Numbered from the stretch's first letter, positions 2,011 through 41,291 are shown. The stretch: 41,291 nt of DNA from a virus (IMGVR_UViG_3300032050_000300:1-41291), one strand, 5' to 3'. The notes: generated by a model from the sequence alone, not told the origin. Numbers and translations are program-made.

Positions 2011-2040
2011 GCACAACCTGACGCGCTTGTCAGGTTGTGC
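2011..2040. repeat. Inverted repeat IR1 (type A/A), candidate operator
   Basis: A perfect 12-bp palindrome with a 6-nt spacer: GCACAACCTGAC, GCGCTT, GTCAGGTTGTGC. It lies in the short non-coding gap between genes 2048-2188 and 1807-1968, one base upstream of the promoter's -35 element. It has no T-tract on either strand, so it is unlikely to be an intrinsic terminator. It is one of seven related elements. Confidence 0.85.
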
Positions 2041-2047
2041 TCTCATG

Positions 2048-2188
2048 TTAGCGCTCGTGCTTGGGTGGCGCGGGTGGATGGTCAGCCAACCGCTCGTTGG
2101 TGCGAGGGTCGAGACCGAGGTGACGGCACAACAGATACAGTGTCGTCTCGATACGCTTCAGGCGGGCTTCGATGCTGTCGGGGTTCAT
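2048..2188 (-). CDS. Small phage protein, last gene of its operon
   Basis: A 46-residue protein starting at ATG 2188, which overlaps the stop of the preceding 216-residue gene (ATGA). It reads as an N-terminal amphipathic helix (MNPDSIEARLKRIETTLYLL), a CRHLGLDP turn and a proline-rich basic tail (DHPPAPPKHER). The helix has the heptad look of a short coiled coil, so it may oligomerise. Function unknown. Confidence 0.6.
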   Translation of the reverse strand: MNPDSIEARLKRIETTLYLLCRHLGLDPRTNERLADHPPAPPKHER

Positions 2189-2835
2189 GACTTGTTCATC
2201 CTTCGTAGTTTGGCTTCAACGGCAGCGGCAACAAGCTCGTTCACATATTCCTGTGAACCCACTCGGCTTGGCACTCGCTTGGGTATGGTGAGCTTGGAAA
2301 GATACTCGTTGGGGATAAGCACCTTCAGTTCGGGGTGCGCCGCACACGCGCCGCTGAGAGAACGATACCCCGCGAACACCAAGCGCAGACGGTGATACAC
2401 AGAGTCCCACTTCTTGCTAATTTCTACCCTCTTGGCGAAATCTTGATACCGGGCCTTGAGGATGGCTACCTCGTTGGCGTACTCCTGTTCGACTGGCAGA
2501 TGATCGTTCACCATTACACCTACGTCAGGCAAGCCGGAGACAACGTACGGCGGGAAATAAACAGCGGCTCCCTTGTTCAGTCTCAACCGGACGTGATCGG
2601 CGTTGTCAGCGTAAACAAACTTATAGTCGAACAAAGTGATACGCTTTTGCCACGTCAACGGCATGACCTCCTTGAGGTGGTAGTGCTCACCCCACATGAT
2701 GCGTTCGGCCAGCGGGGCAGCGTCGACGTGTACATCTGATTTGTCGAACTTATGCTCGGCGGTTTCCTCTCGGGCGTATGCGGTAAGCAAGTTGCTGGTG
2801 TCCGACCAGAACTGTTTAGTAAATAACACTGTCAT
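2185..2835 (-). CDS. Hypothetical phage protein, 216 residues
   Basis: A soluble mixed alpha/beta protein of 216 residues, starting at 2835 after an AGGAG site 9 nt upstream. It has no membrane segment or signal peptide. The C-terminal part is basic with helices (ELVAAAVEAKLRRMNKS). It directly follows the AAA+/VWA/DUF3150-like group (gap of 13 bp after 2849), so it may be the fourth member of that functional unit. The sequence does not match a family I can name. Confidence 0.75.
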   Translation of the reverse strand: MTVLFTKQFWSDTSNLLTAYAREETAEHKFDKSDVHVDAAPLAERIMWGEHYHLKEVMPLTWQKRITLFDYKFVYADNADHVRLRLNKGAAVYFPPYVVSGLPDVGVMVNDHLPVEQEYANEVAILKARYQDFAKRVEISKKWDSVYHRLRLVFAGYRSLSGACAAHPELKVLIPNEYLSKLTIPKRVPSRVGSQEYVNELVAAAVEAKLRRMNKS

Positions 2836-2848
2836 GGTTTACTCCTGA

Positions 2849-3715
2849 TCAGAAAAGACCGGCCATCTTGGACATGATCGCTTCGAGTTCGGACTGCGCC
2901 GTATTGCGCGCACCGATGTCCTCGCGCACCAAGTCAGGTGCGAGGGCGTACTTACCCACGTTGCGCTCGATGTCGGTCACCAGTGCCGACACCGTGGGGT
3001 CGTCCATGATGTTGAGTTTCTTGGCGCGCTCGACCATCTCCGTGATGTTGTTGAACAACGAGTCGTGGAAGAACGAACCATCGTGACCGATGGGCACGGC
3101 CAGCTTCTCGGCCGCCTTTTTGATTGGCTGAAGCAACTCGGACACGAGGTACTTAGTGATGCCCTCCTCGGCCTCGCGGATAGCGGAGTCGAGTGATGCA
3201 CGGTCGTCGTCGCTGATCTCCACGCGGAAGTCGTTGACCGTAGGCACAGGCAGGAACTTGAGCCCGATGTCGTACCGCGCACGGATGTCGGTGGGGTAGT
3301 CCTTCGGGTCGCCGAGGTGCTTGAGACGAGCGAGGTCTTGTGCAACAAGCGTGTCCCACTTGGGCGCGAGGTTGTCCACCTTGCGCTTGGCAACGGCGAT
3401 GAGTTCCCGCACTCCGGCAGTGAAGTCGAAGTACATGGCGCTCGGCAGCATACGCACGCCATCATCCAGCCACGGGGTCGTGCTGCGCTGAACGTACTTG
3501 TACACGTCGTTGAACGCAGCGTTGGTGTCCTTGACCTCGTAGCAGTCGAGGAACAGGCGCTTGTTGAACCGGCCTGCCTTGAGCACGCCGGACTCGGCCT
3601 CGATCTTGGTGGTCTGCACCGAGTCGTACGCATAGGGCTGGAACATACTGCGCTTCAAGCGCACGAGGATGGCACGTTCAGCGAGCGAAGGGATCTTGAT
3701 GTCATTGAGATTCAT
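2849..3715 (-). CDS. DUF3150-like protein of the AAA+/VWA cassette
   Basis: A 288-residue soluble, largely helical protein starting at ATG 3715 with GGAG upstream. The frame stays open far upstream to 4288, but that part lies antisense-in-frame over the VWA gene and inverted repeat IR2, and has no ribosome site. The N-terminus (LAERAILVRLKRSMFQPYAY), the conserved-looking 'GRFNKRLF' region and long charged helices recall DUF3150 proteins. In other phage and bacterial loci these sit beside CobS-like ATPases and VWA proteins, as here. Assignment is by context and general look, not by a search. A likely role is adaptor or substrate of the ATPase/VWA pair. Confidence 0.6.
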   Translation of the reverse strand: MNLNDIKIPSLAERAILVRLKRSMFQPYAYDSVQTTKIEAESGVLKAGRFNKRLFLDCYEVKDTNAAFNDVYKYVQRSTTPWLDDGVRMLPSAMYFDFTAGVRELIAVAKRKVDNLAPKWDTLVAQDLARLKHLGDPKDYPTDIRARYDIGLKFLPVPTVNDFRVEISDDDRASLDSAIREAEEGITKYLVSELLQPIKKAAEKLAVPIGHDGSFFHDSLFNNITEMVERAKKLNIMDDPTVSALVTDIERNVGKYALAPDLVREDIGARNTAQSELEAIMSKMAGLF

Positions 3716-3737
3716 GGTAAGTAACTCCGGTTGGTGT

Positions 3738-3767
3738 GTACATCCTGACGTGGTTGTCAGGATGTAC
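3738..3767. repeat. Inverted repeat IR2 (type B/B), candidate operator
   Basis: A perfect 12-bp palindrome with a 6-nt spacer: GTACATCCTGAC, GTGGTT, GTCAGGATGTAC. It sits in the gap between the VWA gene and the DUF3150-like gene, 22 bp before the start codon at 3715. Both arms differ from IR1 at the same symmetric positions, so symmetry is preserved. No clear -35/-10 pair is seen next to it. Confidence 0.85.
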
Positions 3768-3774
3768 GGGGTGA

Positions 3775-4953
3775 TTAAACTTTGAAGTGGACGGTCTCGC
3801 CCACGGCAGCAGGCGCAACTTTGTCGGTGGTGGACAGAACGATGCTCGGGGTGTTCACGCTGTCGGGCCATGGGGTGAGACCGTCGGTCAGGCACACGAT
3901 GCAGTCGAGGTCGGTCTCGTTCTTGTCGAACCACGCCCAACCCTCTCGCATGTCCGTACCTCCGCCACCCTTGGGGTCCCACTTGACGGGGAAGTCGTCG
4001 GGCTCGAAACGCTGCACACCGCACACCTCGCTGTCGACAGACAGCACGATGACTTCCTCGGGCATGCAGGTCTCGATGATGCGGTTGAAGTGTCCGTTGA
4101 ACGCGTCGGCCTCGCGCTGACCGATAGAGCCCGAGGTGTCGGCGATGAGTCCGATCTTGCCCATGCGCGGCTGCTTGTCGAGCGATGGCAGATAGATGCC
4201 TTGCCCCACGAAACGACGGTTGGGCCGCTTCCACGAGTAGTCGCTGGACACGAACGACTGCATGAACCGTTCGAGGATGGCATGCCACGGTGTCGGCGGG
4301 AAGATGATGTCCTTCAACACGCGCTGCATGTTTGCCGACAGTGCACCGACCATCTTGGCTGCGTTGGCTGCGCTGACCAGTTCACCACGCATCTGATCGC
4401 GCAGCGTCTCGGCCTCAACACCGATGGGCTCACCGTCCGGACAGGGCAACAAATCGTCGCCGATGCCGCCTACGTCGCCAGAGCGACCTATCATCTCCGA
4501 TGAGCCAGAGTCACCACCGGACCCACCGCCGCCACCTCCATCGTCCTCGGGCGGGTCGACGTACAACTGCTCCCACGTCATCTTCTCAGCACCGGCGTGC
4601 CGCTGCCCACCCTCGATGAACTCGCCGAGTCGCTCGGCGATGAGGGTCTCGTTGATCACCTTGTCCATGGCGATGTTGCACGCCCGCTGGTCTCGACCCT
4701 GCGCCGTACTCGGGTGACAGTGTAGGAACGCAACGTGCATTGCCTCATGCGCCAGCAGGAACACCACCTCGTCCACGCTGCGATCCTTGATGAACGTCGG
4801 GTTGATGTAGATGCGACCTCGCGCGTCGGCCCCTGCCGTCTTGGTCATGGTCTCGGTGAACGTGACCGGGCGCTGCAACGTGAGGTAGGCGAAGAAGGGT
4901 GCCTTGAGCACCATCTGGCTCATTGCCAGTTTGACCTTGGTTTCGTGGTTCAT
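3775..4953 (-). CDS. VWA-domain protein with HExxH metallopeptidase-like N-terminus
   Basis: A 392-residue protein of the DUF2201 type. The N-terminal domain has HEAMH at 69-73 followed by H78, the HExxH-x4-H pattern of a zinc peptidase-like fold. A Gly/Ser/Asp-rich linker (about 134-172) leads to a C-terminal VWA-like domain with the MIDAS residues D272-T-S274-G-S276, GGGGTD (T333) and TDG (D357). So it should bind a divalent metal at the MIDAS and probably zinc at the N-terminus. VWA proteins of this kind partner MoxR-family ATPases, and the ATPase gene ends 1 bp upstream. Start 4953 is set by this coupling; the open frame to 5049 lies inside the ATPase gene. The substrate is unknown. Confidence 0.85.
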   Translation of the reverse strand: MNHETKVKLAMSQMVLKAPFFAYLTLQRPVTFTETMTKTAGADARGRIYINPTFIKDRSVDEVVFLLAHEAMHVAFLHCHPSTAQGRDQRACNIAMDKVINETLIAERLGEFIEGGQRHAGAEKMTWEQLYVDPPEDDGGGGGGSGGDSGSSEMIGRSGDVGGIGDDLLPCPDGEPIGVEAETLRDQMRGELVSAANAAKMVGALSANMQRVLKDIIFPPTPWHAILERFMQSFVSSDYSWKRPNRRFVGQGIYLPSLDKQPRMGKIGLIADTSGSIGQREADAFNGHFNRIIETCMPEEVIVLSVDSEVCGVQRFEPDDFPVKWDPKGGGGTDMREGWAWFDKNETDLDCIVCLTDGLTPWPDSVNTPSIVLSTTDKVAPAAVGETVHFKV

Positions 4954-4954
4954 G

Positions 4955-5998
4955 TCAGACTCCGATGAATACTTGGGCGTTGTCGGGGTGCGCGGCCCAC
5001 GTGAGGAACGCAGCGGTGGCGGTGATCTCGGGTTTACGAACGTACGCACTACGCATGGTGAGCACCTCGTACTGCTTTTCTAGTCGACCCATGTACTCAA
5101 GCACAGCACCGATGTTCTGCTTGGTTGCGCGGTTAGCCATTGCACCGGCCATGGCGTACTTGGCTGCAAGGGAATCGGGAAGGGGAGAGGTACTCGGGGA
5201 CAGCAGGCAGGCGTCAGGGTTTGGCATCTCTGCCTCGACCCGACGGAACGCAGCGACCTCGGCCGCCGCACCCTCGCCAACGAACCCTTGGGCCAGCGTC
5301 ATGGTCAGATCCAAGGGCAGGTCGCCACCAGCAGCACGGGCGAACATCTCCCACGAACGCTCGGTGGGGTTCTCGCGCTTGTCCGCATCGAACGCGTTGA
5401 GCAGGTTTGGGCGGAACCCGAGGAACGACACGATCCACAGGGGCAGGCCCGCCTTGATCGCCCACGATTGCCAGCCTTTGAGGTCGGACTCCATGTCGAA
5501 GTGAGCAAGGCGATTCGCTGTGTGGCTAGGCATGCGGTTGGACGCTGCCTTGTCCGTCTGTCGGTTACCAGTGGCAACGATATGCACACCGGGGTGCAGC
5601 TTGAACTCGGCAATGCGACGGTCGAGGATCAGACCGTTGAGGGTGTTGAACATCATCGGCACTGCTTGGTTCAACTCGTCGATCACGAGCATTGCCTTGC
5701 CATGCCGCTCGGCCAGTTCGTTGATCCCCAGCAGGAATGCCGGGGTGATCCACTTGGTGCTGGTCTCGGTGACCATGGGCAGGCCAGTCAGATCCACCGG
5801 GTCGTGGTTCGAGGGTCGGAACATTCTGACCGGGCTGTCAGGATGTTCCATCGGCAGCATGCCCAGAGCCTTGGGCAGACCCTCGGTTGCGAGGTGAGAC
5901 TTGCCGCAACCCGGCGCGCCCCAGACCATGATGGCCTGAGTGGGGTTGTTCTTCAGGACGTGCGAAGCGAGCGAGATGATGCTGGCATAGTTTGCCAT
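4955..5998 (-). CDS. MoxR/CobS-like AAA+ ATPase
   Basis: A 347-residue single-domain AAA+ ATPase. The Walker A motif is GAPGCGKS (27-34), Walker B is MLVIDEL (103-109; D107, E108), and a sensor-1 asparagine lies in VATGNRQ (N145). These, with the compact N-terminal start and the neighbour encoding a VWA protein, point to the MoxR/CobS branch. Members assemble as hexameric rings that remodel or load metal into partners with help from VWA proteins. It is the first gene of the cassette, driven by a near-consensus promoter at 6057-6085, with GGAG 8 nt before ATG 5998. Inverted repeat IR3 lies within codons about 50-60. Phage-specific role unknown. Confidence 0.88.
   Translation of the reverse strand: MANYASIISLASHVLKNNPTQAIMVWGAPGCGKSHLATEGLPKALGMLPMEHPDSPVRMFRPSNHDPVDLTGLPMVTETSTKWITPAFLLGINELAERHGKAMLVIDELNQAVPMMFNTLNGLILDRRIAEFKLHPGVHIVATGNRQTDKAASNRMPSHTANRLAHFDMESDLKGWQSWAIKAGLPLWIVSFLGFRPNLLNAFDADKRENPTERSWEMFARAAGGDLPLDLTMTLAQGFVGEGAAAEVAAFRRVEAEMPNPDACLLSPSTSPLPDSLAAKYAMAGAMANRATKQNIGAVLEYMGRLEKQYEVLTMRSAYVRKPEITATAAFLTWAAHPDNAQVFIGV
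5818..5849. repeat. Inverted repeat IR3 (type B/B) inside the ATPase gene
   Basis: Arms GGAACATTCTGAC and GTCAGGATGTTCC around the 6-nt spacer CGGGCT form 13 bp with a single mismatch. It is the only family member inside a coding region, over codons about 50-60 of the AAA+ gene, roughly 150-180 bp after its start. Spacer length and CTGAC/GTCAG core match the intergenic copies. Confidence 0.7.
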
Positions 5999-6056
5999 TT
6001 GAATTACTCCGAGTGAATTACTAAGGCGTTGTCAGCGAACTGCGACAACAGACTAC

Positions 6057-6085
6057 ATTATGATACAAATCAATACACTTGTCAA
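6057..6085 (-). promoter_or_regulatory. Near-consensus sigma70 promoter of the AAA+/VWA operon
   Basis: On the minus strand a perfect TTGACA (6085-6080) and CATAAT (6062-6057) are 17 nt apart, giving a leader of about 50 nt before ATG 5998. The -35 region sits in the partial palindrome ACACTTG-T-CAAGTGT (6076-6090, plus strand). The upstream sequence AAACACACTTGACA is identical to that of the promoter at 7849-7877. Confidence 0.75.
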
Positions 6086-6091
6086 GTGTGT

Positions 6092-6928
6092 TTACTTCCT
6101 CCAGCGATCAACGGGGGGCAACTCCCCGAGCGGGATCTCCTTTTCAGTGAAGCAGTGGAACTCCTTGTAGACAAGGCGTTGTAGCTTTGCCTGCCATCTC
6201 CAGTCCAGCATGCGGACAGCCACCACGTTGTCGTTGGCGTACTTGTACCGCTGTGCACACAGCAGGCGCAGCAGGCGAGGGAACATCTCGACGTTGGTCG
6301 GGTCGTCGTGTACATCGCTCACTGCGTGGCGGGTCACGGCGTGCGGGGTGTCGCCGAGTAAGGCGGTCATGTCGTTACCGCTGAGTGCGTGCACTGCGGT
6401 CACCCACTGTGTGAACGGAACGAACTTCTCTCGCGCTGCCTTGGCCGCTCGTCGGTCTACGTGCAGGACGGTGTGTTTTGCCACGTTCACCAGTTCGCCG
6501 GGTGCGAGGACAAACTTAGGTGGTGCTCCTTCCGCTGTGCTGCGTACGAACGTGAGCCCACGGTCATAGCTATTGGCCTGAACCCACCCTTCATGACAGT
6601 GGAACCACAACGAGCCCCGGCGCATGGATGCGTACATGCCATAGGGGCACACTGCCGTGATGAACTCGCTGGAGGATTGGCTGTCGTACCGGGTGAGTAC
6701 CACCCGACCGTCGGGGTAGTAGGTCACAAGGTCCGTGCTGTGCAGGCGGGCAGCGATGCGCCCGTCGTCGTACTTGACGATGGTCTTGTTGCGGTTCGGC
6801 CGTCCGCCATCGTTGATGGCCCGGACGTTGGGGTCTCCCTTGCGCCACTGGTGGCCGCGATCCCACTGGATGCGGGCGGATTCATAACTGCCAAGCGTGG
6901 GCAGGTCTCGGGTGCTGATTGCGAACAT
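6092..6928 (-). CDS. Hypothetical phage protein, 278 residues
   Basis: A 278-residue soluble protein with start at 6928 after AAAGGAAA. The first half is rich in beta-type, charged stretches (YDDGRIAARLHSTDLVTYYP; VVLTRYDSQSSSEF), suggesting repeated short hairpins. The second half is more helical and basic. No catalytic motif is evident. It is the last gene of the operon starting at 7747 and lies just before the AAA+/VWA promoter. Inverted repeat IR4 is 19 bp upstream of its start. Function unknown. Confidence 0.75.
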   Translation of the reverse strand: MFAISTRDLPTLGSYESARIQWDRGHQWRKGDPNVRAINDGGRPNRNKTIVKYDDGRIAARLHSTDLVTYYPDGRVVLTRYDSQSSSEFITAVCPYGMYASMRRGSLWFHCHEGWVQANSYDRGLTFVRSTAEGAPPKFVLAPGELVNVAKHTVLHVDRRAAKAAREKFVPFTQWVTAVHALSGNDMTALLGDTPHAVTRHAVSDVHDDPTNVEMFPRLLRLLCAQRYKYANDNVVAVRMLDWRWQAKLQRLVYKEFHCFTEKEIPLGELPPVDRWRK

Positions 6929-6947
6929 GGTTTGTTTCCTTTGTTGT

Positions 6948-6977
6948 GCACAACCTGACGCGGATGTCAGGTTGTGC
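6948..6977. repeat. Inverted repeat IR4 (type A/A), candidate operator
   Basis: A perfect 12-bp palindrome with a 6-nt spacer: GCACAACCTGAC, GCGGAT, GTCAGGTTGTGC. The arms are identical to those of IR1 while the spacer differs. It lies between the small gene 6984-7058 and the start codon at 6928, within the leader of the 278-residue gene. Confidence 0.85.
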
Positions 6978-6983
6978 GGGGTT

Positions 6984-7058
6984 TCAGGTGTTGATCGCCA
7001 GCCACAGAGCCAGTGGCCAGAGGGCGATGCAGAGCCAGAGAATGATTCGGTCGATCAC
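6984..7058 (-). CDS. Probable 24-residue single-pass membrane peptide
   Basis: A tiny frame starting with GTG at 7058, which overlaps the stop of gene 7055-7309 as GTGA, with AAGGA 6 nt upstream. It encodes a basic/acidic N-cap (MIDR) followed by an almost uninterrupted hydrophobic segment rich in Leu, Trp, Ala and Ile (IILWLCIALWPLALWLA). That is long enough for one membrane helix. Size, coupling and a real ribosome site argue for translation. Phage peptides of this kind can act on host membrane enzymes or as holin-like factors, but no function is proven. Confidence 0.45.
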   Translation of the reverse strand: MIDRIILWLCIALWPLALWLAINT

Positions 7059-7309
7059 TTCGAGTCCTTGTTCGGGGTCAGTTTGGCAAGCAGGAAGTGC
7101 GAACCCGTGAAGGTCTGCACCTTGTGCTCGGTCTCTCGCATACGTCGGTACGCGTCGCGGTAACTGTTGGCCGCAGCCATGACGTCTTTGTCCGTTGCTT
7201 CAGGATGGCGCATCAGTTCGAGCGTCGTGCGCTCCATGCGCCGCAGGTTGTGGACGAGTCCATTCCACGCTAAAGCGACGACTTCCTTGCGTCGTTGGCT
7301 CATGGTCAC
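7055..7309 (-). CDS. Small basic helical phage protein
   Basis: An 84-residue basic protein. ATG 7309 overlaps the preceding stop (ATGA), which favours it over the ATG two codons later. It appears all-helical, with many Arg and Glu residues (RRMERTTLELMRHPEATDKD; YRDAYRRMRETEHKVQTF), like an antiparallel helical hairpin. No motif for enzymatic activity is seen. Confidence 0.7.
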   Translation of the reverse strand: MTMSQRRKEVVALAWNGLVHNLRRMERTTLELMRHPEATDKDVMAAANSYRDAYRRMRETEHKVQTFTGSHFLLAKLTPNKDSK

Positions 7310-7530
7310 AGTCCCTTGCTGCGCTTAATGCGGTAATCGTTGGCGTCGGGGTTCCACACCGACAAGATGACGCCATACGCGGCGTTCGGTTGGTTCCACG
7401 CGTCCTTGCCCGGATCGGCGTAGTTGTAGACTTTGGCGGCCTCGTATGCGCTGTCGCCAATGTACAAAATCGAGTTCATGCCGCACGGGGTAACAAGGGA
7501 CATCGCTCGGTCTACTCGGTATGTGTTCAT
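7306..7530 (-). CDS. Hypothetical small phage protein
   Basis: A 74-residue protein starting at 7530, one base after the stop of gene 7532-7747. It is rich in Tyr, Asn and Asp (YIGDSAYEAAKVYNYADPGK) and ends in a basic tail. The layout suggests a small alpha/beta domain. No recognised family. Confidence 0.7.
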   Translation of the reverse strand: MNTYRVDRAMSLVTPCGMNSILYIGDSAYEAAKVYNYADPGKDAWNQPNAAYGVILSVWNPDANDYRIKRSKGL

Positions 7531-7531
7531 G

Positions 7532-7747
7532 TCAGGTTGTCCTCTTGGGGTTGAGTTGGGCCAGCAGGGTGTAGTCAGTCACGTGGATGTAGTTGGATTT
7601 GTTAAGTGGCACAACACAGCGGGTCTTGGCCCGTTGCTTGGCCTGCGAGTCGCCACATGGCAGGCATGTGTGATAACCGAGTTCCCATCGGGCGGGGTCG
7701 ACGGGCGTCTCGTCGCCACGAAGTTGACAGGGACTGCAAAGCGGCAT
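7532..7747 (-). CDS. Small zinc-ribbon-like protein, first gene of operon
   Basis: A 71-residue protein with two CxxC pairs, CSPC (residues 4-7) and CLPC (28-31), about 20 residues apart. This is the usual spacing of a treble-clef or zinc-ribbon knuckle. ATG 7747 is chosen because GGAGA lies 8-10 nt upstream; the frame is open to 7843, but that stretch crosses inverted repeat IR5. It is the first gene after the promoter at 7849-7877. The remaining sequence is basic and soluble (QAKQRAKTRCVVPLNKSNYI). Zinc binding and a regulatory or scaffolding role are inferred. Confidence 0.7.
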   Translation of the reverse strand: MPLCSPCQLRGDETPVDPARWELGYHTCLPCGDSQAKQRAKTRCVVPLNKSNYIHVTDYTLLAQLNPKRTT

Positions 7748-7775
7748 TGCATGTTCTCCAGTAAGTGAGTTAACA

Positions 7776-7805
7776 GAACATTCTGACGGTGTTGTCAGGT
7801 TGTGC
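7776..7805. repeat. Inverted repeat IR5 (mixed type B/A), candidate operator
   Basis: Arms GAACATTCTGAC and GTCAGGTTGTGC around the 6-nt spacer GGTGTT. The right arm is identical to that of IR1 and IR4; the left arm resembles IR3. The palindrome is therefore imperfect, but the CTGAC-N6-GTCAG core is intact. It lies between the promoter 7849-7877 and the start codon at 7747, where a bound protein would block transcription or initiation. Confidence 0.75.
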
Positions 7806-7848
7806 GGGTCTTGCTGCGGGCCGTTCAACAGACGAACGACCACAACAT

Positions 7849-7877
7849 ATTATCGCAGATGTCAAGTGTCGTGTCAA
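7849..7877 (-). promoter_or_regulatory. Sigma70 promoter with duplicated -35 element
   Basis: On the minus strand TTGACA (7877-7872) and GATAAT (7854-7849) are 17 nt apart. TGTCAAGTGT occurs twice on the plus strand (7860-7869 and 7872-7881), so a second TTGACA lies within the spacer. The upstream AAACACACTTGACA matches the promoter at 6057-6085 exactly. It should drive the operon from 7747 to 6092, with a leader of about 95 nt containing IR5. Confidence 0.7.
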
Positions 7878-7995
7878 GTGTGTTTGCTTGTGTTTGTGGC
7901 GCTGTTCGTACCGTATTTGTAGTGTCTGTGCGACGAGCGAACTTTATTTGTGGGTCTGTGAGAGTCGTCTAGGTCGGGGCCGCCAGCGGGGCGGT

Positions 7996-8393
7996 TGTAA
8001 AGGGAAAAGAGTGGGTGTTAACTCGGTTTAATTTTACATTCTATTATTACAACACGGAAAAAAGAGGGGGGGAGTAACGCTGAAAAGTGGGGAAATGTAA
8101 GTTTACGATGACAAAGCCATACGCAACTATTTACAGGCTACACAAAAAACCACGAGATGGATTGCGCGTCCAACGCGCTCTCGGGTTTACAAGTCTGTCT
8201 TTTCCATTACCCGGTACATTAGAAAATAATCTTGTAAATTATGAATAATGCAAGTTGGTTAACCGTTGGCGTACACCAGTTCATAGCTTTATTTGTGGCG
8301 TAAACGCCCGTTGCCGGGTGCCTGTGGCGTGTGGCCGACCTATCATCAATCCCTGCAAAGCAGGGTTACAGTGTAAAGTTTACAGGGTTTACA
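7996..8393. repeat. Cluster of eight TGTAAA/TTTACA hexamers
   Basis: The hexamer TGTAAA or its complement occurs at 7996, 8033, 8130, 8186, 8233, 8372, 8379 and 8388. The 8372 and 8379 copies form the palindrome TGTAAA-G-TTTACA. A ninth copy is at 9407. About 0.2 would be expected by chance in 400 bp of random sequence. Spacing is irregular, so they are iteron-like rather than a tandem array. Confidence 0.6.
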
Positions 8394-8409
8394 TGAGCAA
8401 ACTAGGTTT

Positions 8410-8439
8410 GCACAGCCTGACCGATCGGTCAGAATGTAC
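8410..8439. repeat. Inverted repeat IR6 (mixed type A/B), candidate operator
   Basis: Arms GCACAGCCTGAC and GTCAGAATGTAC around the 6-nt palindromic spacer CGATCG, so the inner 16 bp CTGACCGATCGGTCAG is a perfect palindrome. It lies just past the terminator of gene 8488-9177 and at the edge of the hexamer cluster. Confidence 0.75.
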
Positions 8440-8444
8440 GGGCG

Positions 8445-8469
8445 AAAAAAAGCCCCGCCGAAGCGGGGC
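8445..8469 (-). terminator. Strong intrinsic terminator
   Basis: On the minus strand GCCCCGC, the tetraloop TTCG and GCGGGGC form a 7-bp GC-only stem (8469-8452) followed by seven T residues (8451-8445). This is a textbook rho-independent terminator with a stabilising UUCG loop. It lies 19 bp downstream of the stop of gene 8488-9177. Confidence 0.93.
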
Positions 8470-8487
8470 CGGTGTTGCAATGTCAGT

Positions 8488-9177
8488 TTACTTGGTCTTG
8501 CCTTTCGTCGGCTTGGCAATCTCGCCGGCCGCCTCAGTGAGGCGAGCCCATGCGCGAGCACGGGTGGCCGCATCGGCCGATCGAATTTCAACGGCCGCCT
8601 CGATCAGCGACAGGGTATCGTCATCGGCTTTCGATGCTAGTTCGCGGATAGCGTCCCTGCGCGGCTTTAGTGCTTCGGTTTTCTTCTTTTCGGCCGCCTT
8701 TTCTTCTTCTTTGCGCGCATTGATTTCGGCATCGACGGCTTGCCTGTACTCTTTCGCGGTTTCCTTGCTGACGTCGCCGGCCGCGATTTTTGCTCCGGCC
8801 GCTTCGCGCGCGGCTTTTATTTCCTCTACCGGCTTTCCCTTGAAAGGGTCGACCCGCGCAGACGAAACGCGTGCCGCGTTCGCGTTATCGGCTTTCGGCT
8901 TTTCGGCAGTGAGACCGGTTGCGAACCGTGACCAAGCCTTATCTATCGTATTGGCTTTCACGCCTTCACGCTGCGAGGCAAAACCAGCGCGCCATGAAAG
9001 GCGCGCAGCCTCCCATACGGTAAACGTCGGTTTTGCTCCCATGAGCCCGTCATAGAATTTCAAGACCGTATCGGTCGCACCATCGGCCAATGCATACACT
9101 GAGCCGGCATCGCTAGCGGTTTTCAATTCGATGCCAAACGCGCGAACGGGCGTGCTTTCGATTGCTTTGGTTTCCAT
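8488..9177 (-). CDS. Solitary Ala/Lys-rich coiled-coil phage protein
   Basis: A 229-residue protein with start at 9177 (AAAGG about 8 nt upstream). The frame is open to 9255, but that part covers the promoter. The N-terminal half looks globular (SVYALADGATDTVLKFYDGL; FTVWEAARLSWRAGFASQRE). Residues from about 110 are highly charged and Ala-rich, with a long probable coiled coil (EINARKEEEKAAEKKKTEAL) and a basic C-terminus (KPTKGKTK). It is a single-gene unit with its own promoter and terminator, unlike the other left-arm genes, which suggests early or high-level expression. The gene holds several CGGCCG sites. A DNA-associated role is possible but unproven. Confidence 0.75.
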   Translation of the reverse strand: METKAIESTPVRAFGIELKTASDAGSVYALADGATDTVLKFYDGLMGAKPTFTVWEAARLSWRAGFASQREGVKANTIDKAWSRFATGLTAEKPKADNANAARVSSARVDPFKGKPVEEIKAAREAAGAKIAAGDVSKETAKEYRQAVDAEINARKEEEKAAEKKKTEALKPRRDAIRELASKADDDTLSLIEAAVEIRSADAATRARAWARLTEAAGEIAKPTKGKTK

Positions 9178-9226
9178 CTTTTTGCCTTTGAATGATTGAA
9201 TGCGTGGCCAAAACGACCACATGCAT

Positions 9227-9255
9227 ATTAGACCACAATCAAGGCGACAATGCAA
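9227..9255 (-). promoter_or_regulatory. Probable sigma70-like promoter for 8488-9177
   Basis: On the minus strand TTGCAT (9255-9250) and TCTAAT (9232-9227) are 17 nt apart. The -10 is close to consensus and the -35 is weak. Inverted repeat IR7 lies 2 bp upstream of the -35, the same arrangement as IR1 and the 1981-2009 promoter. Confidence 0.5.
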
Positions 9256-9257
9256 GC

Positions 9258-9287
9258 GTACATTCCGACACGCGCGTCAGGTTGTGC
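9258..9287. repeat. Inverted repeat IR7 (mixed type B/A), candidate operator
   Basis: Arms GTACATTCCGAC and GTCAGGTTGTGC around the 6-nt spacer ACGCGC. The right arm is identical to IR1, IR4 and IR5; the left arm is type B with one change in the core. It is located immediately upstream of the leftward promoter at 9227-9255. Confidence 0.75.
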
Positions 9288-34027: not shown

Positions 34028-35389
34028 ATGTGCGGTGGCGGCGGTGGCGGACAGCGCGGGCTTGAGGAAGAAGAACGAGCCCTATTGCGCATGCAGACCC
34101 GGGTGGCAGAGCAAGGAATTGCTGGCCGAGATCAGGCTATGGCCGGGTATCGTGACTTCATGCGGCGTGGCCGCGAGATGGGTTCTGCGGCTAACCAAGA
34201 CAGGGAAGCCGGGCGAGTCATGGAGGACGCATACGCGGCCTACGGCAACGCCAACAGAATGCAGGATGCTCGACTAGCCAGTATGGGTGTCAACCCGGCC
34301 GATGCCCGCTTCTCCCGAGGACGTGATACCGGCGGCGTAGGAATGGCTGCGCAGGCGGCATCGGGTGCCAACCAAGCTCGTCGCGGCGCTCGCGCTGAAT
34401 CTCTGCAACTGGAAGGCGCAGGCTTGGCCGGTCTGGGCGGGTTCGATCCCACGGGCGCTTTGAGCAGTATGGGCAGCACGATCGGCAACGCCCAGCGTAC
34501 TAACGCCATGGCGGATGCTTCTACGGCTCAGGGTTGGGGGCAGCTTGGTCAGGCCGGTATGTACGGCCTGAAGAACGCCGGCGAGATCGAAAAAGGGGCC
34601 AAAACTGTTGCTGGTTGGTTCGCCGCAGATGGAGGCATGGTTCCATCCTACGCTGAAGGCGGCGAAGTCATGGGCCTGCCCGGGTATGCCAATGGCGGCA
34701 ACGTGTACGACACGGCCTTTAACCAAGTGGGTCAAGCACGTTCGCAAGTTGCTCGCGGCCCCGCACCGCAGCAGCAAAGCGCGATGGACCCGATGACGGC
34801 AACCAAACTAGCCAAGGCTGCGGTTGATAAGGCGTCGAGTAGCTCACTGGGCTACTCCTCGGCTGTTCCGGGCTTGAGTTCTTCCGCTCCGGGTTCGCAG
34901 GCCGCGATGCTCGCTGAACAGACCGGTGCGTTCGGTGCTGAAGGTTTGGCCTCGACCGCCGCTGCCGGAGAAGCTGCCGCTGGTGCCGCTGGTGCTGAAG
35001 CCGCTCTTGGTGCCGCTGGTGCTGAAGCCGCTGGTGCTGGTCTCGCCACTGGTGCTGCGGGCGCTTCTGCTGCGCTCGGCGCTGCTGTTCCTATCCTTGG
35101 TCTGGGCATGCTGGCTGCGGGCTTGTTTGGGCGTAAGGACGGTGGCCCGATCCCCCGCGCCGCGTCTCGCCCCGGCATTGGCCGCAAGCAAGTGGCGGGC
35201 AAGGCTCAGAACTCTAAGGGCGGTAAAGTGTCGGGCCCCGGCGGACCCAAAGATGACATGGTAATGGCTCGCCTCTCCCCCGGCGAGTACGTCCTGCCTG
35301 TTGGCGCTGTGAAGAAGTACGGTCTTGACCGACTGGAAAAAATGCGTCAAGAAGGTCTTGCATTTGAACGCCAACGCAACATCACGTAA
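34028..35389 (+). CDS. Internal virion (ejection-type) protein, Gly/Ala-rich
   Basis: A 453-residue protein after AAGGAG. The N-terminus MCGGGGGGQRGLEEEERALL is followed by helical charged regions, then a Gly/Ala-rich low-complexity segment (about 310-360) with a hydrophobic stretch. The C-terminal part, GGPKDDMVMARLSPGEYVLP-VGAVKKYG, is a motif seen in many phage internal or tape-measure-like proteins. Proteins of this place and make-up are usually ejected with DNA in podoviruses. Confidence 0.7.
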   Translation: MCGGGGGGQRGLEEEERALLRMQTRVAEQGIAGRDQAMAGYRDFMRRGREMGSAANQDREAGRVMEDAYAAYGNANRMQDARLASMGVNPADARFSRGRDTGGVGMAAQAASGANQARRGARAESLQLEGAGLAGLGGFDPTGALSSMGSTIGNAQRTNAMADASTAQGWGQLGQAGMYGLKNAGEIEKGAKTVAGWFAADGGMVPSYAEGGEVMGLPGYANGGNVYDTAFNQVGQARSQVARGPAPQQQSAMDPMTATKLAKAAVDKASSSSLGYSSAVPGLSSSAPGSQAAMLAEQTGAFGAEGLASTAAAGEAAAGAAGAEAALGAAGAEAAGAGLATGAAGASAALGAAVPILGLGMLAAGLFGRKDGGPIPRAASRPGIGRKQVAGKAQNSKGGKVSGPGGPKDDMVMARLSPGEYVLPVGAVKKYGLDRLEKMRQEGLAFERQRNIT

Positions 35390-35400
35390 GGACTCACTAG

Positions 35401-35634
35401 ATGAACGCTCAAGATCTCATTACCAAACATGGCGCTGAACAAGTTGGTGGTCGGCTGATCGCCGTCGTCAATGGCAAGCGCGAGTACATCGCTGACCTTT
35501 TGGATAATGGGTACACGCTCACCTACCACGGGCAAGTGCTCATGCAAGCAATGGAAGAAGCCGCTGCCAAACCGAAGCGCCGCAGCAAGAAAGACGACGA
35601 GTTGAGCGACCTGCTCAACGGCGTCGAGGAATAA
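35401..35634 (+). CDS. Hypothetical small protein between virion genes
   Basis: A 77-residue protein with AAGGA 9 nt upstream. It has a folded N-terminal half (VGGRLIAVVNGKREYIADLL) and a charged C-terminal tail (KPKRRSKKDDELSDLLNGVE). It could be a chaperone or minor component for the flanking internal virion proteins. Function unknown. Confidence 0.65.
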   Translation: MNAQDLITKHGAEQVGGRLIAVVNGKREYIADLLDNGYTLTYHGQVLMQAMEEAAAKPKRRSKKDDELSDLLNGVEE

Positions 35635-35651
35635 TCGTTTAGGGGTCTGAC

Positions 35652-37235
35652 ATGGCCGGCATTGCCAATATCGGTTCGTTCGCCAGCGGTCTCATGCGAG
35701 GCCATCTTACTGCTACTGAGGAGCAGCGCCGGGAGGAAGATCAGGCTTTTCTGAAAGAGCAGCGCGGCCAGACCCGAGACGAGTGGAATCGTGCCGAGGC
35801 TATTCGGCGAGGGATTGCGGCACTACCCCAAGTCGGCAGTCAGCAGACACGACGAGTCAAAGATCCTCAAGCCATCATGGACACTGGTGATGAAAACCAG
35901 TTCATGGATGAGGCGTACTCGTACACGCCAGAAATGCGTCAGCAGGCTTTGGCCGGTCTGTACCGTCAGTACGGTCGGGAGGACTTGGCGGGAGGGGCGG
36001 AGGACAGGGGGTATTCTCTGTTCAAGCAGGGTCGTGAACGAGGACAGATAGAGCGAGTTGACACCGCTCTTTCAAATCGAGCCCAACACCTTAAAGACCT
36101 AAAGGAGCTTGGACTAGCCGGGTACGCGGAAAAGCACGGTAGGTCGTTCAACGGAGATCTGTGGGGGGGTCCTAAATTCGCCGGCCATACGGTGTCATTC
36201 GCCAGCACGCCTAAAGGGCAGATGGTCTACATGCACGATCCATCTGGGAATGTCTCCGGCAAAATGCCCTACACCGAAGCGTCCGTACTGGAGTTCATCA
36301 ATTCGCTCACAGACGCCGAACTTTCTGCTGCCTCGCCGGAGATGTATTCGCAAGTCGCCACTCGCGGCATTCAGCGGGGCCAGCTTGGTGCGCAGCAGAC
36401 GACCGCTGCAGCGGCGATGCGTAACGCTCAGGCAAATGAGGATTATCGCAATTGGATGCAAGGCCGACCCACGTACCAGCAGTCCGGGGACGGTACGATT
36501 CTTCAGTTTGGACCTAGTGGCAACTTACTTGGCACGTTTGGCAGGCCAAGGCCCTTGCCCGGAAGTGGCGGTCGTCAGCTATCTCCAGATGCGGTCAAAG
36601 AACTCAACGTTGCCGCTGCCGCAGTGGACGCCGCAAAAACGCCACAGGAACGACTGGCGGCCCAACAGAAGTTCTCTAATCTGTACACCATTGCAATGAC
36701 CTCCTTGGGCAAAGTTATGAAACCCGGCGAGGTTAAGGGCCTATACCCCGGCACGGCTGACCAAGATCCGCAGTTAGCGGCTTTGGACACGCAAGCGCAG
36801 CAGTTGCTCGCCAAGATGACCGGCGATAACTATGGAGCTACGCAGGATGCTTTGAAAGATATCGAAAGACAGCGTAGCGTAGTTATGCTCAAGCGGCAGA
36901 TCTCTGGGTTGACCCCCGAGGAACGAGTGCCGGAGGCCAGTAACTTACTCAAACAAGGCGCTACCCCAGAAGTTCTACAGCAACTTGGGTTCACGCAGGA
37001 AGAAGTGCGCGCGGCCCGCAAGTACAGACCTGCCGCCCAGCCGGGTGCAGCTACGGCGACCAATCCAACCGCGAAACCGCCGAAAACAGGTGATACCAGA
37101 GTAAGCAGCCTGTCTGCTGAAGAAGCTGGCATGCCCGTAGGAGACAGGATTGGCTTAGGGCTCCAGCGTGCACGTGGAGAATCAACCACTGGTACAGACA
37201 CAAGATCGGTCACCGAGCGTTTGTTTGGTCGGTAA
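35652..37235 (+). CDS. Internal virion (ejection-type) protein
   Basis: A 527-residue, Gln/Ala/Arg-rich protein. The N-terminus MAGIANIGSFASGLMRGHLT is followed by a charged coiled-coil-like region (TATEEQRREEDQAFLKEQRG). The rest is helical and polar with flexible Pro/Thr stretches near the C-terminus. The pattern fits the second of the internal proteins of podoviruses. AGGGG precedes ATG 35652. Confidence 0.65.
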   Translation: MAGIANIGSFASGLMRGHLTATEEQRREEDQAFLKEQRGQTRDEWNRAEAIRRGIAALPQVGSQQTRRVKDPQAIMDTGDENQFMDEAYSYTPEMRQQALAGLYRQYGREDLAGGAEDRGYSLFKQGRERGQIERVDTALSNRAQHLKDLKELGLAGYAEKHGRSFNGDLWGGPKFAGHTVSFASTPKGQMVYMHDPSGNVSGKMPYTEASVLEFINSLTDAELSAASPEMYSQVATRGIQRGQLGAQQTTAAAAMRNAQANEDYRNWMQGRPTYQQSGDGTILQFGPSGNLLGTFGRPRPLPGSGGRQLSPDAVKELNVAAAAVDAAKTPQERLAAQQKFSNLYTIAMTSLGKVMKPGEVKGLYPGTADQDPQLAALDTQAQQLLAKMTGDNYGATQDALKDIERQRSVVMLKRQISGLTPEERVPEASNLLKQGATPEVLQQLGFTQEEVRAARKYRPAAQPGAATATNPTAKPPKTGDTRVSSLSAEEAGMPVGDRIGLGLQRARGESTTGTDTRSVTERLFGR

Positions 37236-37245
37236 GGAGTGACGA

Positions 37246-39507
37246 ATGCCGCTTGACCTAACTGGTATCGACGTCGCGGGCATCAATTCTTTATTCCCGC
37301 AAAAGCCCAAGCGCAATCCGGTAGTAGCCGGGTTGTCGTCCGGTATCGACCAGTTGCAAGGTCTAGGGTACAACGCGTTGGCTGCCGGCGCAGATGCTCT
37401 TAAACTGGAAAGAGGGCGCGACTGGCTACTTGAGAGAGCCGCGAGAAACGAAGCCGAAGCCTACGCCAGTGGGCGTCCTGACCTTGAGATGGTCGAGGAC
37501 CAAGATCTCAGCACGGCGCTTCCGTTTGCGGCGTACCAGATTGCCAAGCAGGTTCCACAGATCGGTGCAGCACTTGGTATTGGTGCATTGACCGGCGGTG
37601 CTGGAATGGTTCCCATGGGCTTGGCTCGTGGTGCTGCTTCGCTCCCGGCGGTTGTAGGTGGCGGCGGCCTTCGCGCCGGGGCTGACTTCGCGGCTCGTCG
37701 TGCGGCCCTCCAAGCGGGGGAACGCTTCGCACAGAACCTAACTGGAGGTGCCGTTCTCGGTGCCGGCATGGGCGTCGGCGATATGTACGGCGAGTCGGTG
37801 GAAGCCGGTGATCCGTCGCCTTACAAAGCGTTTGCTGCTTCTCCGTTGTACGCGCTCGCTGAGGGCCTTCCCACTGCGGTACTGGGCAACACACTAGCCC
37901 GAGGTGCTTTTTCTGGTGGCCTCGGCACCCGGATGGCAAAGGCAGGGGCGGTCAACGCCGGAGCCGGCTCGCTGAGTGAACTGGCGCAAGAAGAACTGGT
38001 CATGGGGTTCAACCCCAACCTGACCCCGGAAGAAGTTGCTTCCCGCCGCCTGAACGCTGCCGTGATCGGCGGCTTGGCCGAAGGTACGTTTGGTTCATTG
38101 GGCGGCTTGCGTAGACCCCCGCAGCCCGTGAATCTGCTGCCCGGTGCCAATCCGGGGGTTGAGACGCAACAGTATCCGTTGGCTCTTGTGGGTGAGCGTG
38201 GGCTCGCCACTGGCGCTCCTCCCAATCTGGGATCAGTGCCGCCATACATTGAGCCTACTCGTATTGATCCGCTGGCTCCGTTCCAACCTTCGCTTCCTGC
38301 GCCGGTGACGCCTGTTGGATCTCAGAACTACGACCCGAACGTCATGTACGTGACGCCGGGCGGCACCGTTGGGCCCATGAGCGCCTTGAGTGGGTTGCAG
38401 CCGGATCTGTTTGGCGGACCTGATGTGCCGTACGGCATGGGCCCAGTAGCTACGGCAGAAACGCCTCTTGCTCCTACGCCGGACACGCAGACGCTCGATA
38501 TGTTCGAGCAAGACCCGACGGCGTTAGTTCGCACTGAGTACGGACTTCAGCAGATTCGCGCCGCGCTGCGCAATGCCAACGGCGGCAAGGCGAACGATGA
38601 GTTCTTACGGTACGTCGCCGACTTTTCTCGCGCGATAGAGCAAGGCCCTGATGCTGTCGATGCGTTGATAGAGAAATACAGCGGAGGCTACAAAGATGCG
38701 AACGGCAAGAAACGAAAGTCTCGTCTGACTCAAGAGGTCGGCGTAGTCTCTCGCCAGATGGCGCAGGACTTCCAGTCGCGCATGACTAACGCAATGGCGG
38801 CTCGCGGACTAAACCTAGCTCGTCCGGGTTCAGTTACTGGGGCGATCCCGCAGTCGGGAGCGACTGAACAGCAAATGCGGGAAGGTAACCAAGCCCGGGC
38901 GGAACAGGAACGTATTGCCGCCGACGCCGCACGCGCGCAAGCTCAAGTTATCGACGAGCAGGAAACCCGCGCCATTGAGGCAATGATTCAGGACGAGACG
39001 GACCTGCGCGCGATGGAAAGTCAGATTCCAGAGCGTCAGGAAAAACTCAGCCCCGGCGGTCAGCGTCGCCTGTTCACCAACCAAGAAATGGGCAGGGTCA
39101 TCCCCAATGCGGCCCCGCAGCCTGAGCCTGCGGTCGAACTTGACCAGACGGGCCAGCGCAAGTTGTTTGATTCATTGGGCAGGCCGGTTACGCAACCGAA
39201 AGCCAAGAAAGCGGAACCTGCACAAAAGGAGCCTCAACGTGCCGTTCAAGAGCCAAGCGCAGCGCCGGTATCTCCACGCAAAGGAGCCCGAGGTGGCAAA
39301 CCGGTGGGAGAAGAAGTACCCGGTCAAGGGCAAACTGCCGGAGAAGGTGAAACCAAGCCCAAAAAGCCCCGCAAAGCCAAGGTAAAAGCCAAAGTAGGCG
39401 AGCAGGAAGTTGAGCTTGAGGTGGATAACGTCGATGAGAAGATCACAGCGATGCGCGCTGACATCGACAAGTTCAAAAGTTTTGTCGCCTGCCTTCGTAG
39501 GAAGTAA
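37246..39507 (+). CDS. Large internal virion protein with membrane-active N-half
   Basis: A 753-residue protein after AAGGAG. Residues about 90-290 contain Ala/Gly-rich amphipathic to hydrophobic segments (IGAALGIGALTGGAGMVPMG; TGGAVLGAGMGVGDMYGESV), as expected of proteins that form a channel through the host envelope during DNA ejection. The middle is Pro-rich. Residues about 530-600 are charged and helical. The last 120 residues include a basic linker. In many related gene orders the last ejection protein is much longer, so truncation is possible. A small gene is nested out of frame at 39239-39385. Confidence 0.7.
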   Translation: MPLDLTGIDVAGINSLFPQKPKRNPVVAGLSSGIDQLQGLGYNALAAGADALKLERGRDWLLERAARNEAEAYASGRPDLEMVEDQDLSTALPFAAYQIAKQVPQIGAALGIGALTGGAGMVPMGLARGAASLPAVVGGGGLRAGADFAARRAALQAGERFAQNLTGGAVLGAGMGVGDMYGESVEAGDPSPYKAFAASPLYALAEGLPTAVLGNTLARGAFSGGLGTRMAKAGAVNAGAGSLSELAQEELVMGFNPNLTPEEVASRRLNAAVIGGLAEGTFGSLGGLRRPPQPVNLLPGANPGVETQQYPLALVGERGLATGAPPNLGSVPPYIEPTRIDPLAPFQPSLPAPVTPVGSQNYDPNVMYVTPGGTVGPMSALSGLQPDLFGGPDVPYGMGPVATAETPLAPTPDTQTLDMFEQDPTALVRTEYGLQQIRAALRNANGGKANDEFLRYVADFSRAIEQGPDAVDALIEKYSGGYKDANGKKRKSRLTQEVGVVSRQMAQDFQSRMTNAMAARGLNLARPGSVTGAIPQSGATEQQMREGNQARAEQERIAADAARAQAQVIDEQETRAIEAMIQDETDLRAMESQIPERQEKLSPGGQRRLFTNQEMGRVIPNAAPQPEPAVELDQTGQRKLFDSLGRPVTQPKAKKAEPAQKEPQRAVQEPSAAPVSPRKGARGGKPVGEEVPGQGQTAGEGETKPKKPRKAKVKAKVGEQEVELEVDNVDEKITAMRADIDKFKSFVACLRRK
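39239..39385 (+). CDS. Nested small protein, 'KSQAQRRYLHAKEPE' family
   Basis: A 48-residue frame inside the 753-residue gene, in another frame. GTG 39239 follows AAAAGGAG by 7 nt, an ideal ribosome site. The product, PFKSQAQRRYLHAKEPEVAN then RWEKKYP and a Lys/Pro-rich tail, matches the pattern K-S-x-A-Q-x-R-x3-A-x2-P-E-x-A-x2-W seen in many short, uncharacterised phage proteins. In this stretch the host frame encodes a low-complexity linker, which could tolerate overlap. This is a strong candidate for a real overlapping gene. Confidence 0.65.
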   Translation: MPFKSQAQRRYLHAKEPEVANRWEKKYPVKGKLPEKVKPSPKSPAKPR

Positions 39508-39510
39508 ACT
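39482..39510 (+). promoter_or_regulatory. Leaderless-type promoter before 39517
   Basis: TTGTCG (39482-39487) and TAAACT (39505-39510) are 17 nt apart, and ATG 39517 follows the -10 by exactly 6 nt. The nearest purine run (GGAAG) is about 12 nt upstream, too far for a good ribosome site. The elements lie at the very end of the preceding gene. Confidence 0.45.
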
Positions 39511-39516
39511 AGCACC

Positions 39517-39891
39517 ATGGCGTCCAAGGCAGATAATGACGAGGCTCTGAAAGCACTTGCGTTGCGCATGGGTGCTTCTGTTCGCTTGTCGAACGGCGAG
39601 ACTTTTAACGCATCAGGAACCCGCGACTCGCGTCGCCCTGCCCAAGTCGTCGACGTCCGTCCGCCTGCGACGGACGAGGTACTGCAAAAGATCGTCGAGC
39701 TACTGGCTAAGCAGCAGGCTCCTAACGTCGTAGTCCCGGAGATGCCACCGCCGCAGGTCGTGGTAGAAGCTCCACAAATCACCGTGCAGCCTGCTCCAGT
39801 TCCGAAGGTTGTGCCCACGAGCTGGAAGTTCACGTTCGAGCGTAACGAGAGCGGTACGATCCGTTCGATCACCGCTACCCCAACCCTGTAA
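39517..39891 (+). CDS. Hypothetical Pro/Val-rich virion-like protein
   Basis: A 124-residue protein. The N-terminal half is charged and polar; residues about 50-100 hold a Pro/Val-rich segment (PNVVVPEMPPPQVVVEAPQI); the C-terminal strand pattern is WKFTFERNESGTIRSITATP. This ending is seen in short phage proteins of unknown role. Translation appears leaderless. Confidence 0.65.
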   Translation: MASKADNDEALKALALRMGASVRLSNGETFNASGTRDSRRPAQVVDVRPPATDEVLQKIVELLAKQQAPNVVVPEMPPPQVVVEAPQITVQPAPVPKVVPTSWKFTFERNESGTIRSITATPTL

Positions 39892-39900
39892 GGAACCGCC

Positions 39901-40305
39901 ATGGCTAACGCCATCTACCCACTGTACAAGCAAGCTCTGCTTGACGCCTCCGCCAACGTCGACCTTAATGACGGTACGGTCAAAGTCGCACTGGTTGACA
40001 CCGGCACATACACCTACAGCGCGGCGCATGAATTTCTTACTTCGCTGACCGGCGTGGTCGGTACCGCCCAGACCATCGGCAATACAACTGTCGCGAACGG
40101 TTTGTTCGATGGAGACAACGTAACTTTCACCGCCGTGCCCGGCACCACTTCGGTCGAGGCTTTGGTGATCTATATTGATACTGGCACTGCCGGCACCTCG
40201 CGGCTGGTGGCGTACATCGACACTTCAGTAACGGGCCTCCCCGTCACTACCAACGGTGGCGACATCAGCATTACGTGGAATGCGTCCGGCATCTTCCAGT
40301 TGTAA
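39901..40305 (+). CDS. Virion protein, compact beta-rich type
   Basis: A 134-residue protein after AAGGAA. It reads MANAIYPLYKQALLDASANV, 'VKVALVDTGTYTYSAAHEFL', a central beta region and 'ALVIYIDTGTAGTSRLVAYI'. The order (N-terminal helix, strand with VKVAL, conserved Tyr, beta C-terminus) resembles the two 'LHT' proteins at 17862 and 18292. Proteins with this start are widespread phage structural proteins of unknown role. Confidence 0.7.
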   Translation: MANAIYPLYKQALLDASANVDLNDGTVKVALVDTGTYTYSAAHEFLTSLTGVVGTAQTIGNTTVANGLFDGDNVTFTAVPGTTSVEALVIYIDTGTAGTSRLVAYIDTSVTGLPVTTNGGDISITWNASGIFQL

Positions 40306-40316
40306 GGGACTGAACC

Positions 40317-40988: not shown

Positions 40989-41291
40989 TGGCGACCAACT
41001 TTTTCCTGCGATCGCTTACATCATCTGTGGGTGGCGCAGGTGACCGTCTTGCCAGTCAGATGCGCGGTCGTGGTGCGGTCACTGCCTTTACGACAGCAAC
41101 TGCTGGCGGCACCGATATTCAGGTCACGGCAACTGCTGGCGGTCAGCCACTTCAATGGTTCACTGAACCGATTACGCAACAGGTGACGATACCGGCTACT
41201 GCGAGCCAAGTAACACCCAACATTCGCGGTTCTGAGAGTGTTGGCACGGTAAACGCTGGTGCAGCTATCACGATTGACCGATGCGACAACT
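40988..41291 (+). CDS. Virion protein, N-terminal part only
   Basis: A frame starting at ATG 40988, sharing one base with the preceding stop, and open to the end of the window (101 residues visible). It starts MATNFFLRSLTSSVGGAGDR and continues Ala/Thr/Gly-rich with beta-like strands (TTATAGGTDIQVTATAGGQP; QQVTIPATASQVTPNIRGSE). This is probably another surface or tail protein. The end is outside the window. Confidence 0.7.
   Translation, partial: MATNFFLRSLTSSVGGAGDRLASQMRGRGAVTAFTTATAGGTDIQVTATAGGQPLQWFTEPITQQVTIPATASQVTPNIRGSESVGTVNAGAAITIDRCDN

Follow-up and report, generated by a model that had tools for sequence, protein, structure and literature searches.

A family of 30-bp inverted repeats occurs seven times in the window, i.e., the whole stretch of DNA analysed here (IMGVR_UViG_3300032050_000300:1-41291, a virus sequence 41,291 bases long, whose phage, an uncultured one, is called phage 1 below). 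In each repeat, a 12-bp arm stands on either side of a 6-bp spacer (12-6-12). Together with g8488, a gene located among them, these sites look like a previously undescribed gene-control switch, with a putative regulator and its landing sites. In the explanation that we favour, and to which we give about an even chance, the elements would be the binding sites of a dimeric DNA-binding protein of the phage, most likely the g8488 product, which would repress the early genes and its own gene.

Exactly seven matches to the core CTGAC-N6-GTCAG, with at most one mismatch, were found in the window (Table 1), where 1.85 ± 1.27 are expected and where none of 100 shuffled sequences reaches seven. With a weight matrix, these sites score between 34.4 and 38.9 bits and the next best position of the window 5.9 bits. 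Among the coordinates given in an earlier note on this DNA, six are right (2011, 3738, 6948, 7776, 8410, and 9258) and the third, 5818, has to be moved to 5819. Its sorting of the arms into two types, A and B, combined as AA, BB, or AB, also stands, except for site 5819, which carries a GAACAT(T/C)CTGAC variant. The location of this same site within the MoxR coding sequence had been overlooked.

Table 1. Dyad sites of the window and features of the candidate regulator gene g8488
Feature	Position	Strand	Context
Dyad site, arms AA	2011..2040	-	42 nt before the ATG of gene 1807-1968; adjoins the -35 of TTGACT-17-TAAATT
Dyad site, arms BB	3738..3767	-	Between the VWA gene and g2849; 22 nt before the ATG at 3715
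Dyad site in the MoxR coding sequence (E-H-P-D-S-P-V-R-M-F)	5819..5848	-	Codons replaced, none inserted, compared with the homologue of G002
Dyad site, arms AA	6948..6977	-	19 nt before the ATG of gene 6092-6928
Dyad site, mixed arms	7776..7805	-	Preceded by promoter TTGACA-17-GATAAT (7877-7849); ATG of gene 7532-7747 28 nt further on
Dyad site, mixed arms	8410..8439	-	Directly downstream of the g8488 terminator (8470-8451)
Dyad site, mixed arms, one core change	9258..9287	-	Adjoins the -35 that serves g8488, whose ATG is 80 nt away
g8488, 229 aa, without known family; candidate regulator	8488..9177	-	Sites on both sides in all three phages
g8488 promoter TTGCAT-17-TCTAAT	9227..9255	-	Read by eye
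Intrinsic terminator after g8488	8451..8470	-	

A second record, IMGVR_UViG_3300008258_000001 (61,497 bases), corresponds to the same phage in the opposite orientation, being 100% identical over the aligned stretches. The right end of the window (34,983-41,291) matches the far end of this contig, which implies that the map closes into a circle of about 61.6 kb. The motif search over the complete genome, as proposed in the earlier note, added only one site, degenerate and overlooked until now, which scores 25.0 bits and belongs to the coding sequence of the DNA polymerase, some 3.3 kb to the left of the window (L027:4168). The flanking genome segments score at background or yield unrelated repeats and, with the weight matrix, no further site above 6.5 bits occurs in the ~61.6-kb genome. 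All the phage-1 sites fall within 12.6 kb of the leftward arm, which is non-structural, and the claim that none lies in the rightward genes holds at the scale of this genome. The phage-1 proteins scanned match polymerase, primase, helicase, head, tail, and endolysin families. No integrase family is among the matches listed for them (for PHROGs, 25 of 73 families), and this phage is therefore likely to be virulent.

The same geometry is found in two relatives, likewise uncultured, G002 (IMGVR_UViG_3300022744_000037; TerL 77% and MoxR 58% identical to phage 1) and G004 (IMGVR_UViG_3300034053_000021; MoxR 35% and polymerase 34% identical), a TerL matching that of phage 1 not being found in the latter. 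Using an unsupervised search for five dyads, seven dyads were identified in each of them; geometry and placement are kept and the letters have diverged. The dyad score reaches 171.7 for phage 1 (left 12 kb of the window), 128.3 for G002, and 151.0 for G004 (first 13 kb), against 68.6 ± 5.6 (maximum 82.7) for 60 Markov shuffles of G002 and 72 to 89 for the next four segments of G004. In G002, other gap lengths also give high scores, because of low-complexity repeats. No 12-6-12 family of this kind was found in more than 200 segments of relatives collected through TerL, primase, and helicase searches; for the more than 200 segments of TerL and primase relatives, the median score is 70, the higher ones corresponding to tandem or low-complexity repeats. 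A looser pattern scan of viral contigs returned seven others with one site each, as expected by chance.

Two regions of the window were noted apart from the sites themselves. The first one (7840-8410), between a promoter and site 8410, comprises about 570 bp without assigned gene and contains repeated GTTTACA/TGTAAAC words, similar words being present beside the G002 counterpart of site 8410; it is a possible replication origin. The second one (3775-5998) encodes a pair formed by a MoxR-like ATPase and a VWA/metallopeptidase-like protein (DUF2201), which is conserved beside TerL in many relatives.

Over the three phages, the 21 sites carry 21 different spacers, all of 6 bp. The cores used by tyrosine recombinases have arms of 11–13 bp and a spacer of 6–8 bp, and the 12-6-12 sites resemble them in size. 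It is nevertheless hardly conceivable that the elements are core sites of a site-specific recombinase, or copies of a mobile palindromic repeat. Indeed, spacers that differ at every site would block the exchange, and the matches listed for the scanned phage-1 proteins comprise no integrase family. The mobile palindrome is ruled out by the MoxR site of phage 1, which replaces homologous codons and is not an insertion.

The placement of the sites follows a plan common to all three phages, i.e., four leader sites, one promoter site, one downstream or gene-end site, and one coding site. Twelve of the 21 sites are located 1–42 nt upstream of early start codons, the leader sites lying at 42, 22, 19, and 28 nt from the start in phage 1; at 2, 28, 1, and 3 nt in G002; and at 39, 22, 35, and 33 nt in G004. 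In each phage, one site adjoins the -35 of the g8488-type promoter (80 nt before the ATG in phage 1, 78 in G002, and 81 in G004) and one is found downstream of g8488 or its homologue, overlapping the gene end in G004. The earlier note had rightly seen that two phage-1 sites abut a -35 and that another separates a promoter from its first gene; the former are 9258 (then TTGCAT-17-TCTAAT) and 2011 (then TTGACT-17-TAAATT), and the latter is 7776 (promoter TTGACA-17-GATAAT). Sites recur at corresponding genes: g8488 in the three phages; gene 6092-6928 in phage 1 and G002, the G002 counterpart of site 6948 being 1 nt before the ATG of the homologous gene; and MoxR in G002 and G004. All 21 sites serve leftward genes, and some occupy the gap between two successive genes of an operon. 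Three of the G002 sites stop 1–3 nt short of the ATG, and their downstream arms carry AAGGA, which resembles a Shine-Dalgarno (SD) sequence. As these sites touch the ribosome-binding region, some of them may have a translational role.

The consensus of the 42 half-sites is GGACAWYCTGAC, and the 12-bp half-site of phage 1 is GNACANNCTGAC. Positions A3, C4, and C12 are invariant in 42/42 half-sites and A11 is conserved in 41. When the half-sites were re-paired at random, the number of matched arm positions was as observed (P = 0.32, 0.65, and 0.69 for the three phages). The arms hence vary independently within the sites, which argues for a recognition of DNA half-sites, presumably by a protein dimer, and against an RNA hairpin, in line with what the earlier note had claimed. 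Some features would suit hairpins in early mRNA leaders, acting as a translational operator or a processing site: sites 2011, 3738, and 6948 form perfect 12-bp stems, many sites lie 19–42 nt before a start, and an SD-like AAGGA is carried by the downstream arm of the start-touching G002 sites. We judge this very improbable. Indeed, as the main reading, the RNA hairpin is ruled out by the half-site shuffling and by the absence of an Rfam match; moreover, in site 997 of G002 barely half of the positions pair, and the sites adjoining the g8488 promoter lie upstream of the g8488 transcript.

The 21 sites are also asymmetric relative to transcription (P = 0.0015), the coding strand carrying an A at the first two spacer positions in 13/21 and 12/21 sites, and on the other side in only 4 and 4. 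This directionality has to be considered, together with the placement, when asking whether the sites serve a DNA-organising, partitioning, or packaging protein (centromere-like, N15-type), gene starts being favoured merely because they are non-coding. Several dispersed copies in one arm, and a g8488 product predicted to be helical with a long C-terminal helix, would fit such a function. We consider it decidedly unlikely, given the proximity of 12 sites to starts, the three sites adjoining the -35 of a g8488-type promoter, and the orientation relative to transcription. Neither a ParA nor an integrase family is among the matches listed for the scanned proteins (for PHROGs, 25 of 73 families), and no Pfam match of ParA/ParB type was obtained in the scanned phage-1 proteins.

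The candidate g8488, which the earlier note had not named, stands alone among the tested proteins that the three site-bearing phages share, in that no homologue of it was detected in the site-free relatives; this co-occurrence profile is made of three site-bearing genomes. No homologue was found in Rollin, RHph_TM27A (49 kb covered), BcepC6B, or nine TerL relatives, and the phage and plasmid collections searched with g8488 and its homologues gave no match. This co-occurrence with the sites constitutes a strong association, and not a proof of binding. The promoters of the g8488 homologues, read by eye, are arranged alike (TTGACA-17-TTTAAT for G002, TTGACA-17-CATAAT for G004). The protein diverges fast, with 30% identity among homologues, and has no family, PDB-sequence, or fold match, and no significant structure match in PDB or BFVD. 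Its AlphaFold model, of modest confidence (pLDDT 69.9), comprises an N-terminal helical region and a long C-terminal helix; in view of such a model and of the lack of family or fold match, a helix-turn-helix (HTH) motif is only presumed. An extra half-site, GACATGCTAAC, was also observed at G002 L011 122-134, overlapping the -35 and the spacer of the g8488-homologue promoter.

The sites could also be operators of another phage regulator, encoded by an Xre-like gene or a Crp-like winged-HTH (wHTH) gene of the far left arm, g8488 being merely one of the regulated genes. Both genes give weak HTH matches, the CTGAC-N6-GTCAG core has the 5-6-5 layout of Crp-type sites, and regulators often control many genes. 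We find this rather unlikely: the Xre-like gene has a homologue in G002 and none in G004 (at E ≤ 1e-3), for the Crp-like wHTH gene, both relatives lack a credible homologue, and neither gene is flanked by sites. A 530-aa G002 protein with at least two HTH-like stretches (L011 1610-3202), whose gene itself contains a dyad, was rejected as the binder, no homologue existing in phage 1 or G004. A host transcription factor, whose operators the phages would exploit, is quite improbable too. A host clade common to the three phages is conceivable, but the exact phage-1 half-site pair gives only three single matches, in unrelated species, among 84,980 species genomes, which makes a host operator unlikely; besides, the half-site consensus drifts between phages, and the presence of sites on both sides of g8488 in every phage would be left unexplained. 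The operator family of a phage regulator announced in the earlier note is supported by the conserved geometry and placement, the restriction to the leftward arm, and the lack of a host family, the binding being what we infer from the sequences.

If the g8488 product is this regulator, each of its monomers would read one 12-bp half-site, and the fixed 6-bp spacer would set the inner blocks 11 bp apart, i.e., one helical turn, as is usual for an HTH dimer. The site adjoining the -35 of g8488 suggests autoregulation: the protein would control its own strong promoter through this site and would act at further sites just upstream of selected early, leftward gene starts. Sites within operons and within coding DNA cannot all serve to activate a promoter, so that repression, or a roadblock, would be the simplest common action, also in view of the sites downstream of g8488. 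RNA polymerase would be blocked at promoters and, in a stoperator-like manner, during elongation, so that early expression would be limited or timed. More tentatively, and with clearly more doubt than confidence, g8488 could found a new regulator family with an unknown DNA-binding fold; in virulent, podovirus-like phages, it would control early genes by means of directional 12-6-12 dyads placed at the starts of genes. Such a stoperator-like control of elongation would have arisen independently of that of mycobacteriophages, and the regulator would co-diverge with its sites.

Two known systems come close. In Cluster K mycobacteriophages, ESAS are imperfect inverted repeats located just upstream of non-structural gene starts, with 17-bp arms and a spacer of 4–13 bp, usually accompanied by the 13-bp SAS GGGATAGGAGCCC; their letters drift between subclusters, and they are conserved by gene family (PMC3203893, PMC12699233). 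The sites described here share the imperfect inverted symmetry, the drift of the letters, the conservation by gene family, and the location before non-structural starts (12/21 sites, 1–42 nt), and differ by their 12-bp arms, their constant 6-bp spacer (21/21 sites), the site adjoining a -35, and the co-occurring candidate regulator; SAS GGGATAGGAGCCC was not found within 100 nt downstream of any site. The stoperators of Cluster A temperate phages (L5 Rep) are 13-bp asymmetric monomer sites of an HTH repressor, numerous in short intergenic spaces and promoters, oriented with transcription, and present at the regulator gene, regulator and motif diverging together (PMC6550527, PMC9283540). Like them, our sites are dispersed, often not promoter-associated, located in short intergenic gaps, and in one orientation relative to transcription (all leftward genes; same asymmetry test); one of them lies at the gene of the candidate regulator, which diverges along with the motif. 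Unlike them, they are 30-bp quasi-palindromes with a weak asymmetry, no integrase is among the matches listed, and g8488 matches no known family. As these defining features fail (17-bp arms, variable spacer, and SAS on one side; a 13-bp asymmetric site on the other), the sites would work like ESAS or stoperators and are not members of either. The earlier statement that no described phage operator has this layout is to be qualified: both systems are comparably placed, and the 12-6-12 dyad layout differs from both.

Other dyads were met in related phages. The cultured relative Rhizobium phage RHph_TM27A (L221, MN988461, 1-49000), which has the same MoxR/VWA/polymerase/helicase set as phage 1, contains GTTACC-N6-GGTAAC in 15 exact and 20 one-mismatch copies (0 and 0.1 in shuffled sequences). 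These dyads are likewise dispersed, with a 6-bp spacer, and often lie 2–6 bp before starts; on the other hand, their 6-bp arms differ, the ~35 copies in 49 kb extend into structural genes, and no g8488 homologue accompanies them. Many carry GAGGT in the right arm, and they apparently form a separate dispersed family. As this phage has its own dyad family, dyads that are dispersed and spaced by 6 bp may be more frequent among such phages than has been recognised. In G004 (L209), exact TTGTGA-N6-TCACAA dyads, of Crp-like layout, were seen at 5211, 7005, and 9718, two of the three heading near-identical duplicated leaders that end in AGGAGATTGAAATG. Close to the start of its record, Pseudomonas phage Rollin (L113 1-500) presents four palindromes that are almost perfect, with the form AAAAGGTAG-N-AAGTTACTACCTTTT or a variant of it.

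The start-associated repeats of Cluster K have been known since 2011 without known binder or function. The present analysis describes a similar case in phages unrelated to these. It offers a single candidate regulator, three regulator/site pairs that have diverged from one another, and a promoter arrangement whose conservation suggests autoregulation, which makes binding, specificity, and mode of action directly testable. It points to a global layer of early-gene control in phages without sign of lysogeny genes.
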